Assembly (NCBI GenBank): GCA_000990005.1
Contig: LBPF01000006.1
Coordinates: 97,615-154,663 of the forward strand
DNA length: 57,049 nucleotides
Source of the DNA: Candidatus Woesebacteria bacterium GW2011_GWB1_33_38
Lineage (GTDB): Bacteria; Patescibacteriota; Microgenomatia; UBA8517
Reading direction: 5' to 3'
Notes under the pieces: model-generated
Databases searched by the model: none
The model's input: the letters and a program-made list of their open reading frames with translations, nothing else
Told to the model about the DNA's origin: nothing
Position numbers and translations under genes: made by a program
In this document: in pieces, positions 36,175-43,030 of the stretch
Numbering within the stretch: the first letter of the stretch is position 1
How the letters are laid out: every line of letters begins with the position of its first letter

Positions 36175-38128
36175 TAGTTATTCCAAATTTTGATTTAAGG
36201 GAAGACAGGATTTTACTTCTTGTCTCTTCAACTTCTCTGTCTGTTAAGGTTTTATTTTTATCCTGATATTCAATATTAAAGGTAAAACTATTTTGATAAA
36301 TATCAACGAGTTCAACCTTTGTGACTAGTGGCTGGTGATCTGTGATTTGTGAGATTACATCACCCACATAAGTTTTTTCTGGAATAACTAGAGTTAAATC
36401 TTCTACCTGTGGTGGATATTTGGCAATTTCTTGGTATTTTCTATTTACCATTTTACTCGTCATAAGTTTAGTCATATCGAATGAATAGTAGAATAATCCA
36501 TTTTCTAAATTTCCATACTCCCCGATGTTTTCCCTATCCGAATAAATTTCCAATCTTTGATTAGCTAAATAACTTTTACCGTCTTCAAGTTTCTCTGAAT
36601 AATCAATTGATAATTCATCTAGAAGTGTTTTAATAATACCTTTATTTTTTCTGAAATCGTAGATTGTTATTTTATTTCCATTTTTAATAACTCCAGATAA
36701 AGTTAATTTTTCTTCTGGTAAGTCATTTTTACGAGCTGAATATACATTTGCCATTTCAAATAAATGTATATAACCTTTTTGTTGTGGGTTATCCTTAATA
36801 TTTTGTATGAGAGAATCTTTTAAATTATCTCTTAAATATTCCGAGTCAGACCCAAGAGGATTCTTAAGTTTTAATTGACCTTTTTCAACTAGTGATGAAT
36901 TGTAAATTTCAAATCCACCTACGGATCTTAATATTTGTTTTACATTTGATTCAAATTTAAAATCGTTTGTAGGTTGTGGTTTGGGTAATTGACCATCCAT
37001 AAGAATACAAGGTAAATTATGATATCCATAAATTCTGGCAACCTCCTCAACTATATCTTCAGAAATGTTAATATCATTTGCTCGCCATGAAGGTACGGTG
37101 AACAACAAGGTGTCACCTTGTTGCGTAACTTTAAAACCTAGACTGGTCATGTAGTTTGTTATGTCTTTTATGTTAATTTCAATACCGATTTTTTTATCCA
37201 TATCTTTTTTTGATGTTTTTACAAACTTTTCTTTATATGGTATTGGATATAGATCAAGTATTTCCTTTTCTGCAATGCCTCCTGATATTTTTTCAATCAT
37301 TTCTATAGCAGATAAGATTGCCGGTTTTACATTTTCACTATCTAATCCTTTTTCAAAAAGAATTGCAGCTTCTGAACGCTGGCCAAGAGTCATTGAAGTC
37401 TTTCTAATTTTGTGTTGATTATAATTTTGAACAAATAATAATACATTTTTTGTAGCAGAATCAATTGCACTATTTTTACCCCCCATTATTCCACAAAGAT
37501 CAACTATTCTTTTTCCACCATCCTCTATTACAATATCTCCCCCATCTAGTTTAAAAGTTTTGTCATCTAGAGTAGTTATCATCTCTCCTTTTTTTGATTC
37601 CCTTAATATCATTTTGTGACCGCTTAATTTATCGTAATCAAAAGTATGAACTGGTTGTCCTAATTCATGCATAATGTAATTACTGACATCCACAATATTA
37701 TTAATTGGCCTAACACCAACTTTTAAAAGCATATTTTTAATTTCATCTGGAGAATCTTTTACTTTGACATTTTTAATTAATATTGCAGTAAATCTTGGAC
37801 ACAAACTTTTATCTACCACAACATCTAAATATTTAACTCTGTTAGTGAATAAATAGTGATTTGTGACTGGTGATTTGTGAGAAACTAATTTTGCTGAAAT
37901 TCCAAATCTGGGTAAAATTGCATTTGCTTCCCTGGCTATACCTAAAACTCCTGCACAATCAACTCTATTAGTAGTTATTTCAATTGAATAAACACTGTCT
38001 TTATCTTCAGTTTCTCTAATTCGTTCAATAGAAGGACCACAAAGAGATAAGTATTTAGCCAATTCTTTTGGTTTTGCGTTTGTATCTAAATATTTTTTTA
38101 ACCACGAATGTGGAATTAATAAATCCAT
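36164..38128 (-). CDS. pheT: phenylalanine-tRNA ligase beta subunit, short form
   Basis: A 654-residue beta subunit, about 140 residues shorter than in E. coli. It begins with the B1 segment MDLLIPHSWLKKYL but passes to SVYSIEITTNRVDCAGVLGI without the OB/EMAP tRNA-binding insertion. The B3/B4 editing domain is present (GQPVHTFDYDKL, then GIMGGKNSAI). The B5 and catalytic-like domains follow, and the C-terminal anticodon-binding domain ends near FGITIKV. A 21-nt REP palindrome lies in frame at 37103-37123, encoding QQGDTL near residue 338. It is 7 nt downstream of the AlaX-PheS fusion gene. Confidence 0.93.
   Translation of the reverse strand: MDLLIPHSWLKKYLDTNAKPKELAKYLSLCGPSIERIRETEDKDSVYSIEITTNRVDCAGVLGIAREANAILPRFGISAKLVSHKSPVTNHYLFTNRVKYLDVVVDKSLCPRFTAILIKNVKVKDSPDEIKNMLLKVGVRPINNIVDVSNYIMHELGQPVHTFDYDKLSGHKMILRESKKGEMITTLDDKTFKLDGGDIVIEDGGKRIVDLCGIMGGKNSAIDSATKNVLLFVQNYNQHKIRKTSMTLGQRSEAAILFEKGLDSENVKPAILSAIEMIEKISGGIAEKEILDLYPIPYKEKFVKTSKKDMDKKIGIEINIKDITNYMTSLGFKVTQQGDTLLFTVPSWRANDINISEDIVEEVARIYGYHNLPCILMDGQLPKPQPTNDFKFESNVKQILRSVGGFEIYNSSLVEKGQLKLKNPLGSDSEYLRDNLKDSLIQNIKDNPQQKGYIHLFEMANVYSARKNDLPEEKLTLSGVIKNGNKITIYDFRKNKGIIKTLLDELSIDYSEKLEDGKSYLANQRLEIYSDRENIGEYGNLENGLFYYSFDMTKLMTSKMVNRKYQEIAKYPPQVEDLTLVIPEKTYVGDVISQITDHQPLVTKVELVDIYQNSFTFNIEYQDKNKTLTDREVEETRSKILSSLKSKFGITIKV
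37103..37123. repeat. REP palindrome inside pheT
   Basis: A perfect 21-nt inverted repeat around 37113 with the same core AACAAGGTGTCACCTTGTT as the RAYT-flanking copies. It lies inside an intact coding sequence and encodes QQGDTL. Confidence 0.9.
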
Positions 38129-38135
38129 GTTTTTA

Positions 38136-39923
38136 TTATAATTGTGACAAAACTCTTAAATCTGAACTATATAAAAGTCTTATATCAGGAACAGAAAGGC
38201 CAGATTTCATCATAGCAACTCTTTCAACTCCCCAGCCAAAAGCAAAACCAGAATATTCGTTAGGATCAATTTTACAATTTTTTAAAACATTTGGGTGAAC
38301 CATCCCAGCGCCACCAATTTCTAACCAACCTTCTTTACATAGCTTACAACCCTGCGCGTCACAAACATTGCAAGAGATGTCTACCTCAAATGATGGCTCT
38401 GTAAATTGAAAATGATAAGGCCTTAATCTAATTTCTCTCTTTGGACCGAAAAAACTCTTGGCAAAGTAATCAATTGTTCCACGAAGATTAGTTATGGAAA
38501 TATTTTTATCAACTACTAATCCTTCAAATTGGTGAAACATAGACAAATGACTAACATCACTTTGTCTCCTATAACATTTAGCAATATTTATCATTCTGAT
38601 AGGCGGAGTATTTGAAAGCATCTCTCTAATCTGTCCACTTGAAGTGTGGGGTGTTAAAAGCATTGGACCGTATTTTTTCGAATTAGGTGAATCTACGAAA
38701 AATGTTTCCCAGTCATCCCTGGCTGGGTGATTTTCAGGGAAGTTTAAAGCTCCAAAGGCAAAATAATCCCATTCAACTTCAGGGTACCTTACTCGACTAA
38801 AACCAATTTTTTCAAAAACTGATGATATTTCATCAATTGCTTTTGTAACCATATGTAGATGGCCAAGTTTTGTTTTTTTAGCTGGCATTGTAGGGTCAAA
38901 CCAGACTCGGGCTAGATTAGATAAATTATTTTTCTTGTTTGTAATTAATACTTCTAAAGTATTTTTAACTTCATTTAAAGTAATACCAAATTGTCTTTTG
39001 TTTTCAGTTGAAATTTTTGCAATTTCTTTTGATATAGAAGTAAATTTTCCGCTTCTGCCAAATAAATCAATTCTTATTTGTTCCAGTTCCTCAAAAGTTG
39101 TCACTTCCGATATTTGTGCAATAGCTTGATTTTTAAGATTGATCAAATCCTCACGAGATGTCGAAGAAACTGTATTATTTTTAGTTTTAGTATCTACTGC
39201 AATTTCAGATATATCTTTTGTGATTTTGTAATACACATATACAAACTCACCCTCGTTTAATATTTCAACTGAATCAAATTCTCCAACTTCAACAGTATTT
39301 TTAAGTTGAGTTCCTCCATCAGGGATTGGTGCAAAACCACCAATCCACATAATTCTTAATGGTTTATTGGTTGGTAAATGTTCAGGAACCCAGGGTGATC
39401 TTTTTTTCAATTCGTCAAGGGAAACAAATTCGGTAAAAACAGGCAAAGACTTTTTAATCAACTCGTTTGCCTTATTAAGTATTATGTTTGCAGAAATTTC
39501 TTCAATATTTCCTTTATATTTAATATATGCCTTTTTACCATGTTCTCCTTTAACAGGAATAAGTTCTGGAAATAGCATTTTAACGGCTTCGTGTAAAACA
39601 TGACCAGCTGAATGAACTCTCATGTTGTGATATCTTTTATTCCAATCGATAGTACATTCAACTGTTTCGCCAGTTGAAAATTTACCATTAATTTCTCCAA
39701 TGTGTTTTAATTCAGATCCTTTAAGTAAAACCTGCTGTACGTCAAGCCTGCCTTTTTTGCCTTCAATAAAACCTTGGTCTGATGGTTGTCCACCTCCGAA
39801 TGGATAAAAAATAGTTTGATCCAAAGTTACAACCGTTAAGTTGTTTTCAGTTTTCAAGTCGATAATTTTGGCTTTGCACGACCTTTTATAGGAATCTGTT
39901 AAATATATGGGGTTTGTATTCAT
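38136..39923 (-). CDS. pheS: fusion of an AlaX-type tRNA-editing domain with phenylalanine-tRNA ligase alpha subunit
   Basis: A 595-residue fusion. Residues 1-240 resemble AlaX (alanyl-tRNA editing, the domain shared with AlaRS and ThrRS): FYPFGGGQPSDQG (39-51), HSAGHVLHEA with the zinc ligands His104 and His108, and PDGGTQLKNTVEVG (201-214). At this last site the usual CxxxH zinc pair reads Asp202 and Gln206. From about 255 on it is a full PheS: a coiled-coil tRNA arm, CYRRQSDVSHLSMFHQFEG (motif 2) and GFAFGWGVERVAMMKSG (motif 3). The gene is uninterrupted and precedes pheT. The alpha subunit charges tRNA-Phe; the editing half could deacylate mischarged tRNA, but its altered metal site makes activity uncertain. 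Confidence 0.92.
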   Translation of the reverse strand: MNTNPIYLTDSYKRSCKAKIIDLKTENNLTVVTLDQTIFYPFGGGQPSDQGFIEGKKGRLDVQQVLLKGSELKHIGEINGKFSTGETVECTIDWNKRYHNMRVHSAGHVLHEAVKMLFPELIPVKGEHGKKAYIKYKGNIEEISANIILNKANELIKKSLPVFTEFVSLDELKKRSPWVPEHLPTNKPLRIMWIGGFAPIPDGGTQLKNTVEVGEFDSVEILNEGEFVYVYYKITKDISEIAVDTKTKNNTVSSTSREDLINLKNQAIAQISEVTTFEELEQIRIDLFGRSGKFTSISKEIAKISTENKRQFGITLNEVKNTLEVLITNKKNNLSNLARVWFDPTMPAKKTKLGHLHMVTKAIDEISSVFEKIGFSRVRYPEVEWDYFAFGALNFPENHPARDDWETFFVDSPNSKKYGPMLLTPHTSSGQIREMLSNTPPIRMINIAKCYRRQSDVSHLSMFHQFEGLVVDKNISITNLRGTIDYFAKSFFGPKREIRLRPYHFQFTEPSFEVDISCNVCDAQGCKLCKEGWLEIGGAGMVHPNVLKNCKIDPNEYSGFAFGWGVERVAMMKSGLSVPDIRLLYSSDLRVLSQL

Positions 39924-40110: not shown

Positions 40111-40152
40111 TTAGGAAGTAAAGAAGAATGCAAATGTATTTACTGATTTCAT
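40111..40152 (-). CDS. phenylalanine-rich leader peptide (pheM-like)
   Basis: A 13-residue ORF, MKSVNTFAFFFTS, with four Phe codons, three of them consecutive. It is read from the minus strand between the promoter and the attenuator hairpins. It resembles the PheM leader ahead of pheST in enterobacteria in size, Phe cluster and position. A ribosome stalled at the Phe codons leaves the antiterminator arm free, so transcription reads through into pheS when charged tRNA-Phe is scarce. No good Shine-Dalgarno sequence is visible, and the predicted transcription start is only a few bases upstream, so initiation may be near-leaderless. Confidence 0.85.
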   Translation of the reverse strand: MKSVNTFAFFFTS

Positions 40153-40162
40153 GCTAAATTGT

Positions 40163-40190
40163 ATTATAATATATAAAATGCTTCTTGCAA
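40163..40190 (-). promoter_or_regulatory. sigma-70-type promoter for the phe leader
   Basis: On the minus strand TTGCAA (40190-40185) and TATAAT (40168-40163) are separated by 16 nt. Transcription would begin near 40156, just ahead of the leader ATG at 40152. The region overlaps the start of the divergent gene at 40178. Confidence 0.65.
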
Positions 40191-40492
40191 CTGCCAAATC
40201 CAAAAATAATATTTTAATCCGTTTAACGGACGAAAGATTTAAACATATTATTTATTCACATAAAGAAATTTCCCTACCTGATTTCAAATTAATAGCCTCA
40301 ACTATTGAAAACCCTGTTGCAATATTTGAAGGCAATTCTGACGAATTATTGGCAACTTCCAAATTTGATAAAAATAGATGGATTGTGGTAGTATATAAAG
40401 AATTAAAGTCTGATGGGTTTGTTATTACTGCCTATATAACGACAGACTTTAAATGGTTATTAAAAAGAAAAATTATATGGACCAACAAATAA
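40178..40492 (+). CDS. toxin-like small protein next to a DUF2283 protein
   Basis: A 104-residue protein read from the ATG at 40178 (MLLATAKSKNN); an upstream ATG at 40151 would put nine residues in the leader-peptide region. Visible segments are IRLTDERFKHIIYSHKEI, FEGNSDELLAT and VVVYKELKSDGFVITAY, which resemble small BECR-fold or DUF4258-like proteins often paired with DUF2283. The stop overlaps the start of the DUF2283 gene, suggesting a toxin-antitoxin-like pair. It sits inside the conserved rplT-pheS gap, divergent from the phe leader. The function is inferred from context. Confidence 0.55.
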   Translation: MLLATAKSKNNILIRLTDERFKHIIYSHKEISLPDFKLIASTIENPVAIFEGNSDELLATSKFDKNRWIVVVYKELKSDGFVITAYITTDFKWLLKRKIIWTNK

Positions 40493-40719
40493 TAAATTCT
40501 GCTAAATTGGCAGTGAACGATTTAATGAAATTATCTCTATTGGGTGATTCGCGTTTATGGGTTGATTTTGATAGAGAAGCAGATGTTTTATATGTTAATT
40601 TTGGTCAACCACAAAAAGCTGATGATTCAATTCTTGGAGATGACAACATTATAAGAAGAAAAAGAAATGGTAAAATTGTAAGTCTTACTGTGCTTAATGC
40701 AAGTCAGTATTCAATATAA
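40477..40719 (+). CDS. DUF2283-family protein, probable antitoxin
   Basis: An 80-residue protein with the DUF2283 pattern: LWVDFDREADVLYVNFGQPQ, DDSILGDDN and IVSLTVLNAS. The start I prefer is the ATG at 40477 (MDQQIINSAKLAVN), inside the end of the upstream gene (16-nt overlap); 40453 is possible. DUF2283 proteins often accompany small toxin-like genes. It ends next to the convergent rplT stop (no spacer). Confidence 0.75.
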   Translation: MDQQIINSAKLAVNDLMKLSLLGDSRLWVDFDREADVLYVNFGQPQKADDSILGDDNIIRRKRNGKIVSLTVLNASQYSI

Positions 40720-41270: not shown

Positions 41271-41790
41271 ATATGTTTGTGGGCGAAATGATCATTATCA
41301 AGTTTCTGCCTAAAAACTTAGGTTTCATGTCGATATTGATTCCCTCTCCCAAATCTTTCAAAATTCTGTCCATTATATCATAACCAAAGGTTTTTGACCC
41401 TAGTTGTTTTAATTTAAAATAAACTACTAGTTTTACTTTATCTTTATCGGTCAAAAACTCATCAATTCTTTTAAGTCTTGTTTGGTAATCCCCCTCTCCA
41501 ATAAATGGGGTAAACCTAATTTCTTTTAAGTCAGAGGGTTTTGCTTTTTTATTTGCTTCCTTCTGCTTTTTCTCTTCTTGATATTTAAATTTGCCAAACT
41601 CAATAATTTTGGCGACAGGCGGTTCTGCCTTTGATGCTATTTCAATTAAATCCTGATTTGACTCTTTTGCTAATTTAATTGCTTCATCCTTACTTATTAC
41701 TCCAATTTGAACACCTTTGGAATCCAAAACCCGCAAAGTTGTAGCGGGAATTCTTTCATTTATGCGCCAATAATTATTGGTAGTTTTCAA
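41230..41790 (-). CDS. infC: translation initiation factor IF-3
   Basis: A 186-residue two-domain initiation factor that monitors start-codon choice and subunit dissociation. The N-terminal domain carries WRINERIPATTLRVLD and a KEEKKQK-rich linker; the C-terminal domain has LKEIRFTPFIGEGDYQTRL and IDMKPKFLGRNLIMI. It starts with ATG here, not the AUU known from E. coli infC. It overlaps thrS by 17 nt and rpmI by 41 nt. IF-3 fidelity is relevant to the rare start codons seen elsewhere in the window. Confidence 0.95.
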   Translation of the reverse strand: MKTTNNYWRINERIPATTLRVLDSKGVQIGVISKDEAIKLAKESNQDLIEIASKAEPPVAKIIEFGKFKYQEEKKQKEANKKAKPSDLKEIRFTPFIGEGDYQTRLKRIDEFLTDKDKVKLVVYFKLKQLGSKTFGYDIMDRILKDLGEGINIDMKPKFLGRNLIMIISPTNIYGKQKNKDQTISN

Positions 41791-43030
41791 TTTCAGATTT
41801 TATTATATCAATAAATTTGGATAATTGCATCGTGGAATTTTTACCTGTTCTGTTTCTTATAGAAATTTCATTATTTTCAATTTCTTTATCACCTACAATA
41901 ATCATATATGGTACTTTTTCTTTCTGAGCATCTCTAATTTTGGCACCTAGCGTTTCATTTCGCGTGTCTAACTCAACCCTAACTTTTTCATCCGTTAGCT
42001 CTTTGAATATTTTCTCTGAGTAATCTAAATGCTTTTCAGAAATTGGCAATATTTTAACTTGAACAGGAGAAAGCCAAGTTGGAAATGAGCCTTTATATTT
42101 TTCGATTAAAAAAGCGATTATTCGTTCAATTGCCCCAATTGAAGATCTGTGAACGACAACTGCTTCAGTTTTACCACCATCTTCATTTATGAATTCTAAT
42201 TTAAATCTTTTAGGCATTACAAAATCATATTGAACTGTAAAGGCGGTGTCCTCTTTTCCATTAGCGTTTACCATTTGAATATCGATCTTAGGACCATAAA
42301 AAGCTGCTTCACCTTCCGCCTCTTTGTACTTTGACTTTCCTTCAATCAAAACCGATCTTAATATTTCTTCAGCTTCATCCCATGATTTATCATCCTTAAA
42401 ATATTTTTTTTCATCTTTTCTATCCCCTAAAGAAAGTCTGTAACTATAATCCTTGTCTTTTATAAGCCCTAAAACTTTATTGCAGTAATCAATCAATTCC
42501 AAGGCATTTTTTATTTCGCTTTTAGCCTGTTCTTTGGTGCAGATTATGTGGGCATCAGCTAAACAAAAACTTCTGACTCGCTGTAGGCCCATCAGCTCTC
42601 CCGATTTTTCAAATCTATATAACTTTGCAAGTTCAGCGTATCTAATCGGTAAATCTCGGTATGATCTTGGTTTATCTAAAAATAGCTCAAAATGGTGTGG
42701 GCAAGTCATTGGACGAAGCATAAATTCTTCATCCTCAATAATAATCGGAGCATACATACTATCTTTATAATATGGGTAATGTCCTGATTTCTTATATAAG
42801 TCTAATTTTGCAATGTCTGGAGTATAAACATGTTGATATCCTCGTTTTATTTCCTCGTCAACAATAAACCTCTCGAGAGTTCTCCTGATTGCCGCCCCTT
42901 TTGGGGTCCATAGTGGAAGTCCTTTTCCAACAGTGTCTGAAAAGGTAAAAAGATCAAGTTCACGGCCGAGCTTTTTGTGGTCCCACTCTTTTTCAACTGA
43001 TTCTTTTGTATTCGATAATTTTAATTTCAT
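41774..43030 (-). CDS. thrS: threonyl-tRNA synthetase lacking TGS and editing domains
   Basis: A 418-residue class II synthetase, about 220 residues shorter than E. coli ThrRS. It starts directly with the catalytic domain (KKLGRELDLFTFSDTVGKG), motif 2-type VRSFCLADAHI, zinc-site RPMTCPHHFELF and motif 3-type HRSSIGAIERI. The anticodon-binding domain begins near SPVQVKILPI. The TGS domain and the SAD editing domain, which clears Ser-tRNA-Thr, are missing. It is the first gene of the thrS-infC-rpmI-rplT operon. A homologous SAD-type editing domain is found instead on PheS. Confidence 0.94.
   Translation of the reverse strand: MKLKLSNTKESVEKEWDHKKLGRELDLFTFSDTVGKGLPLWTPKGAAIRRTLERFIVDEEIKRGYQHVYTPDIAKLDLYKKSGHYPYYKDSMYAPIIIEDEEFMLRPMTCPHHFELFLDKPRSYRDLPIRYAELAKLYRFEKSGELMGLQRVRSFCLADAHIICTKEQAKSEIKNALELIDYCNKVLGLIKDKDYSYRLSLGDRKDEKKYFKDDKSWDEAEEILRSVLIEGKSKYKEAEGEAAFYGPKIDIQMVNANGKEDTAFTVQYDFVMPKRFKLEFINEDGGKTEAVVVHRSSIGAIERIIAFLIEKYKGSFPTWLSPVQVKILPISEKHLDYSEKIFKELTDEKVRVELDTRNETLGAKIRDAQKEKVPYMIIVGDKEIENNEISIRNRTGKNSTMQLSKFIDIIKSEIENYQ

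Follow-up and report, generated by a model that had tools for sequence, protein, structure and literature searches.

The window analysed here, a stretch of 57,049 nucleotides from Candidatus Woesebacteria bacterium GW2011_GWB1_33_38 (contig LBPF01000006.1, positions 97,615 to 154,663), carries a gene in which a tRNA-editing domain of the AlaX family is joined in one frame to a complete alpha subunit (PheS) of phenylalanyl-tRNA synthetase (PheRS). The fusion recurs in other genomes of the same class, the metal site of its AlaX domain is retained but changed, and in one relative a domain of the same subtype is separately fused to the beta subunit, PheT. We propose that the AlaX domain is an active deacylase tethered to PheRS, where it would serve as a second checkpoint on the tRNA held by the synthetase; judging from sequence comparisons, we put the probability of this reading at about one half.

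The original prediction had read an AlaX domain and a full PheS at 38136–39923 without giving a strand; the limits are right, and the gene lies on the minus strand. The open reading frame runs through 595 amino acids without an internal stop. NCBIfam TIGR00468 (pheS) matches residues 295–594 with 255.4 bits, above its cut-off of 237.45, and Pfam Phe_tRNA-synt_N (PF02912, 51.7 bits) and tRNA-synt_2d (PF01409, 276 bits) cover residues 276–594, so the PheS part is complete. A domain search of the N-terminal part, which had been suggested as a check, bore out the AlaX homology. NCBIfam NF040865 (AlaXM) matches residues 3–226 (E=1.9e-40, 139 bits), the tail of Pfam PF01411 matches above its cut-off, and a sequence search aligned residues 3–218 with the AlaX-M chains 9iuw and 2e1b of the PDB. 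Since the NF040865 score is under the equivalog cut-off of 300 bits, and the second metal pair reads DGGTQ instead of the CxxxH (CGGTH) of AlaX-M, the domain is AlaX-M-like and not a curated AlaX-M.

From 21 fused sequences, AlphaFold gave a model of the full protein with a mean predicted local distance difference test score (pLDDT) of 80. One half of it has the AlaX-M fold, with a template modelling score (TM) of 0.86 to 2e1b (root-mean-square deviation 2.3) and of 0.88 to 9iuw (target length), and the other half matches bacterial PheRS alpha chains; the predicted TM score of the whole was 0.44, which leaves the relative placement of the domains undefined. The extent first assigned to AlaX, residues 1–240, was about right and could be narrowed to approximately 1–238, with a linker at 239–256 and PheS from approximately 257.

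Sequencing error, a chimeric assembly or a chance joining of two genes can be excluded. Indeed, AlaX and PheS share a single frame (of about 575–655 amino acids) in 22 of 374 genomes of the class, from eight families, so that the search for the same fusion in other Patescibacteria yielded 21 further genomes. A scan of genome contigs, in which the fusion is under-sampled, gave at least 80 loci. Among 380 genomes sampled from the phylum, where longer frames were only partly identified, fused frames of PheS length were confined to this class; outside it, one locus (L175, genome G467) has an AlaX-like match (31%) within a frame of 1004 amino acids. In genome G211, with the gene order rplT-pheS-pheT, an AlaX domain of the same subtype is found at the C-terminus of PheT, in which the FDX-ACB domain was not detected. 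Two different joints thus connect AlaX of one subtype to PheRS. Genome G074 has a free AlaX of the PheRS-linked clade about 11 kb beyond pheT.

We compared the histories of AlaX and PheS in trees obtained by quick searches without bootstrap. The AlaX domains of the 22 PheS fusions, of the PheT fusion and of the free G074 protein form one clade (Shimodaira–Hasegawa-like approximate likelihood ratio test, SH-aLRT, 94). Free AlaX with DGGTQ form a clade of their own (SH-aLRT 99), and archaeal DGGTH and canonical CGGTH AlaX also stand apart. The PheS tree, in contrast, requires at least 10 changes between the fused and unfused states, and a single clade of main-type fused PheS is rejected (approximately unbiased test, AU, p=3e-71). 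A PheS clade of just the two fused members from the window's family is likewise rejected (AU p=0.017), yet their AlaX domains are sisters. Furthermore, the same AlaX is found in G079 and G334 on a distant PheS type, only about 36% identical to that of the window. As the AlaX domains form one clade and the fused PheS do not, the module has either moved between PheS genes or been lost very often from an old fusion, and the counts fit both. A single fused PheS ancestor with simple vertical descent was rejected by the same clade tests, with which many losses of an old fusion are compatible. The AlaX module stays with PheRS across distant PheS.

Canonical AlaX has Cys at the position of residue 202 and His at that of residue 206. 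Both are altered here, to Asp202 and Gln206, as first noted; the pair is, however, no oddity of this protein but the rule of the whole AlaX subfamily, fused and free, and so does not on its own distinguish the fusion. Across 23 PheRS-linked domains, GGGQ, Asp49, Arg97, His104, His108, His128, Arg190, Asp202, Gly203 and Gly204 are invariant; Gln occupies position 206 in 21 of them and His in the other two. The first metal pair (HxxxH, His104 and His108) is kept in all other aligned AlaX rows as well. The metal positions and GGGQ are preserved at an overall identity of about 40–60%, as would be expected of an enzyme, and the strict conservation of His104, His108, Asp202 and Gln/His206 counts against the earlier suggestion that the domain acts only in tRNA binding. 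Free-standing DGGTQ relatives, among the matches listed, include records from Roizmanbacteria and Chlamydiae. The matches listed also contain archaeal free-standing AlaX with DGGTH, where only Cys is changed to Asp (L093, L102, L104, L106, L108 and L114). This motif is an apparent intermediate between CGGTH and DGGTQ, and the change looks stepwise and a property of the subfamily.

The joining of AlaX to both PheRS subunits, together with the strict retention of the metal positions, favours an active deacylase at PheRS; two different joints to one enzyme would be hard to account for if the domain had no role there. We infer that the domain binds a metal, hydrolyses an ester and acts on tRNA held by PheRS. 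A divergent AlaX-M-type deacylase would be carried on a flexible linker upstream of the alpha-subunit coiled coil and, in the assembled PheRS, would form a second post-transfer checkpoint beside the B3/B4 domain of PheT. Misacylated tRNA, either PheRS-bound or freshly released, would enter the AlaX pocket, where hydrolysis of its ester would use a metal coordinated by His104, His108, Asp202 and Gln206. The tRNA acted upon would most likely be tRNA-Phe.

Several points weigh against this proposal. Selection of tRNA-Ala by AlaX-M and AlaX-L reportedly relies on G3:U70 (PMC11295145), and action on tRNA-Phe would therefore require a changed recognition. The known substrates of AlaX are Ser and Gly, while the known errors of PheRS are Tyr and meta-Tyr (PMC11295145). 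Most relatives, moreover, do without the AlaX domain. They include G001 from the window's own genus, which has the same replacement in the PheT editing site (see below) and whose PheS, 83–85% identical and without AlaX, is encoded 10 bp after rplT. A broader claim would be that PheRS of these bacteria has acquired, from the AlaX family, a second and metal-dependent editing site whose specificity is new for both tRNA and amino acid. This AlaX would be the first to proofread tRNA-Phe and would have spread as a mobile module between PheS and PheT genes; we hold this reading more tentatively, and would not bet on it at even odds.

The PheT encoded next to the fusion (TIGR00472, 467 bits, above cut-off) contains the B3/B4 domain through which PheRS normally edits. 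The presence of the domain had been predicted correctly, but normal editing by it is doubtful. Glu334 of the B3/B4 site, with Gly315, is reported to recognise tyrosine (PMC12447630). We mapped this position by HMMER alignment to PheT of E. coli, T. thermophilus and S. haemolyticus, and by MAFFT alignment of relatives. The window PheT has Phe232 in place of the Glu that is the standard mark of tyrosine editing, and keeps the equivalents of Arg244, His265, Asn254, Thr354 (as Ser) and Ala356. Throughout the class the position is Phe, Leu or Trp in most main-type PheT and His in a second type, whether PheS is fused or not; tyrosine editing may be weak in much of the class. Altered PheRS editing has been described in Mycoplasma (PMC4014445). 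The replacement of Glu334 does not track with the fusion, and since G001 and other unfused relatives share it, possession of the fusion does not go along with damage to B3/B4. As a general explanation, replacement of a damaged PheT site by AlaX finds no support: Glu334 is equally replaced in unfused close relatives, and three of the genomes with PheRS-linked AlaX retain an acidic residue (Glu in G079 and G211, Asp in G334).

The EMAP/B2 tRNA-binding domain was not found in the window PheT, and is missing from PheT throughout the class (about 650 amino acids versus 790), in fused and unfused genomes alike. It could be that AlaX only aids PheRS in holding tRNA, standing in for the lost B2, as has been proposed for the AlaX-type domain (AXD) of the Plasmodium tryptophanyl-tRNA synthetase Pf-WRS, which is required for tRNA binding and aminoacylation (PMC3680381). 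We consider this unlikely. The metal residues of Pf-WRS are gone (Asp, Ser, Asn and Val), whereas they are kept in 23 of 23 domains here, and as B2 is just as absent from unfused relatives, the fusion is no regular substitute for it.

No better placed is the possibility that the domain is a general trans-editing factor, acting on Ser-tRNA-Thr or on Ser- or Gly-tRNA-Ala, for which PheRS is merely a carrier that gives it expression or contact with tRNA. Such a factor could cover for the threonyl-tRNA synthetase (ThrRS) of the window, which lacks the TGS and SAD domains. The SAD domain of ThrRS is homologous to AlaX, and in this genome AlaRS has the only other SAD domain; no further SAD-family editing protein was found. 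Furthermore, ancestral AlaX is reported to be non-specific for tRNA (review PMC11295145). However, the AlaRS of this genome (572 amino acids) retains its own editing domain (HTLTH, CGGPH), so that no second domain is needed for tRNA-Ala; G046 is unfused and yet has a SAD-less ThrRS; and why AlaX was fused separately to two PheRS subunits would be left unexplained. As a substitute for missing ThrRS editing, the AlaX fusion is not general: in the other fused genomes examined, SAD is present in at least one of ThrRS and AlaRS. The ThrRS of most relatives examined is 590–670 amino acids long and includes SAD. The short copy of G046 is 75% identical to the window ThrRS, and the SAD-bearing one of G001 (594 amino acids) only 50%, suggesting that the window ThrRS is a gene replacement. 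In G324, the single above-threshold SAD match lies in the ThrRS frame near pheS, and AlaRS may have no detectable editing domain.

An accidental fusion, with AlaX as a passenger without a present role at PheRS, would suit the patchy distribution and the 10 or more state changes on the PheS tree; it is improbable given the conserved active-site residues, the repeated association with both PheRS subunits and the single PheRS-linked AlaX clade. That PheS is also or only made separately, by linker cleavage or from an internal start, is hardly credible. In its favour is an in-frame TTG at residue 260, near the PheS start of relatives; this codon and a GTG at 274 are the only in-frame start-like codons near the joint. 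Against it, the native ATG used by G001 is lost, and the joint is open in frame in 22 genomes.

Table 1. Features of the fusion gene and associated synthetase genes (window positions, except for the last row)
Feature	Position	Strand	Basis or remarks
AlaX-PheS fusion gene	38136..39923	-	595 codons and stop; single open frame, domain matches, 21 further genomes
AlaX-M-like domain, residues 1-238	39210..39923	-	NF040865 (E=1.9e-40), PF01411 tail, fold match to 2e1b and 9iuw
GGGQ motif, residues 43-46	39786..39797	-	Invariant in 49/49 aligned AlaX rows
HSAGH, residues 104-108, first metal pair	39600..39614	-	AlaX alignment
DGGTQ, residues 202-206, altered second metal pair (canonical CGGTH)	39306..39320	-	AlaX alignment
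Linker of 18 residues, 239-256	39156..39209	-	pLDDT <50 at 239-254
PheS, residues 257-595: N-terminal coiled coil and class II core	38139..39155	-	TIGR00468, PF02912, PF01409
pheT, PheRS beta subunit, 654 aa	36164..38128	-	B3/B4, B5, CLM, FDX-ACB; starts 7 bp past pheS stop
PheT Phe232 at Glu334 position of B3/B4 editing site	37433..37435	-	HMMER and MAFFT alignments
ThrRS, 418 aa, without TGS and SAD	41774-43030	-	
PheT-AlaX C-terminal fusion in G211, 870 residues	L064 1668-4277		B3/B4, B5, CLM, then AlaX 647-869

Two small open reading frames (40151-40492 and 40453-40719) separate the fusion gene from rplT and are on the plus strand, opposite to the fusion gene; one has a weak phage-nuclease-like match (PBECR2/DUF4258), and the other encodes a DUF2283 protein. 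They are missing from the syntenic locus of G001 and look like a small inserted toxin-antitoxin-like pair. We did not find tRNA-Phe in this genome with two patterns, the Rfam tRNA model and ARAGORN typing at 34 Rfam tRNA hits; the gene may be intron-interrupted or lie within a gap.

Editing domains are usually bound to one amino acid and one tRNA. The repeated joining of AlaX to PheRS points to an additional, so far undescribed, quality check during protein synthesis. In agreement with the original prediction, searches of a collection of open-access papers, with subscription journals mostly outside the coverage, brought up no fusion of AlaX to PheS or PheT. If the proposal is true, it would show how domain shuffling can rewire proofreading, in a mostly uncultured lineage with very small genomes, where AlaX is linked to PheRS at two joints and on distant PheS types and the tyrosine-recognising residue of PheT is absent from much of the class. 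Whether AlaX can be redirected to a different tRNA could also be tested directly in this system.

Among known systems, AlaX-M (AlaXp-M; P. horikoshii 2e1b and P. furiosus 9iuw), a deacylase of Ser- and Gly-tRNA-Ala, shares with the fused domain the full-length two-part fold, GGGQ and HxxxH. It is, however, free-standing and has the Cys/His second pair, whereas the domain described here is carried on PheS, has Asp/Gln and scores below the NF040865 cut-off. The B3/B4 domain of bacterial PheRS, also present in this enzyme with Phe at the Glu334 position, is unrelated to AlaX. ProXp-ala on Plasmodium ProRS (PMC11295145) is likewise a trans-editing factor covalently joined to a synthetase, but there both partners serve the same amino acid (Ala-tRNA-Pro errors), while AlaX and PheRS belong to different ones. 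The closest precedent is the AXD of apicomplexan TrpRS (PMC3680381), an AlaX-type domain that a linker attaches to the N-terminus of a synthetase for an amino acid other than alanine. That domain is of a short, type I-like form, has lost all metal residues and functions in tRNA binding, in contrast to the metal positions kept in all 23 domains here; and its host is a class I enzyme of eukaryotes, whereas PheRS is a class II enzyme, here of bacteria.
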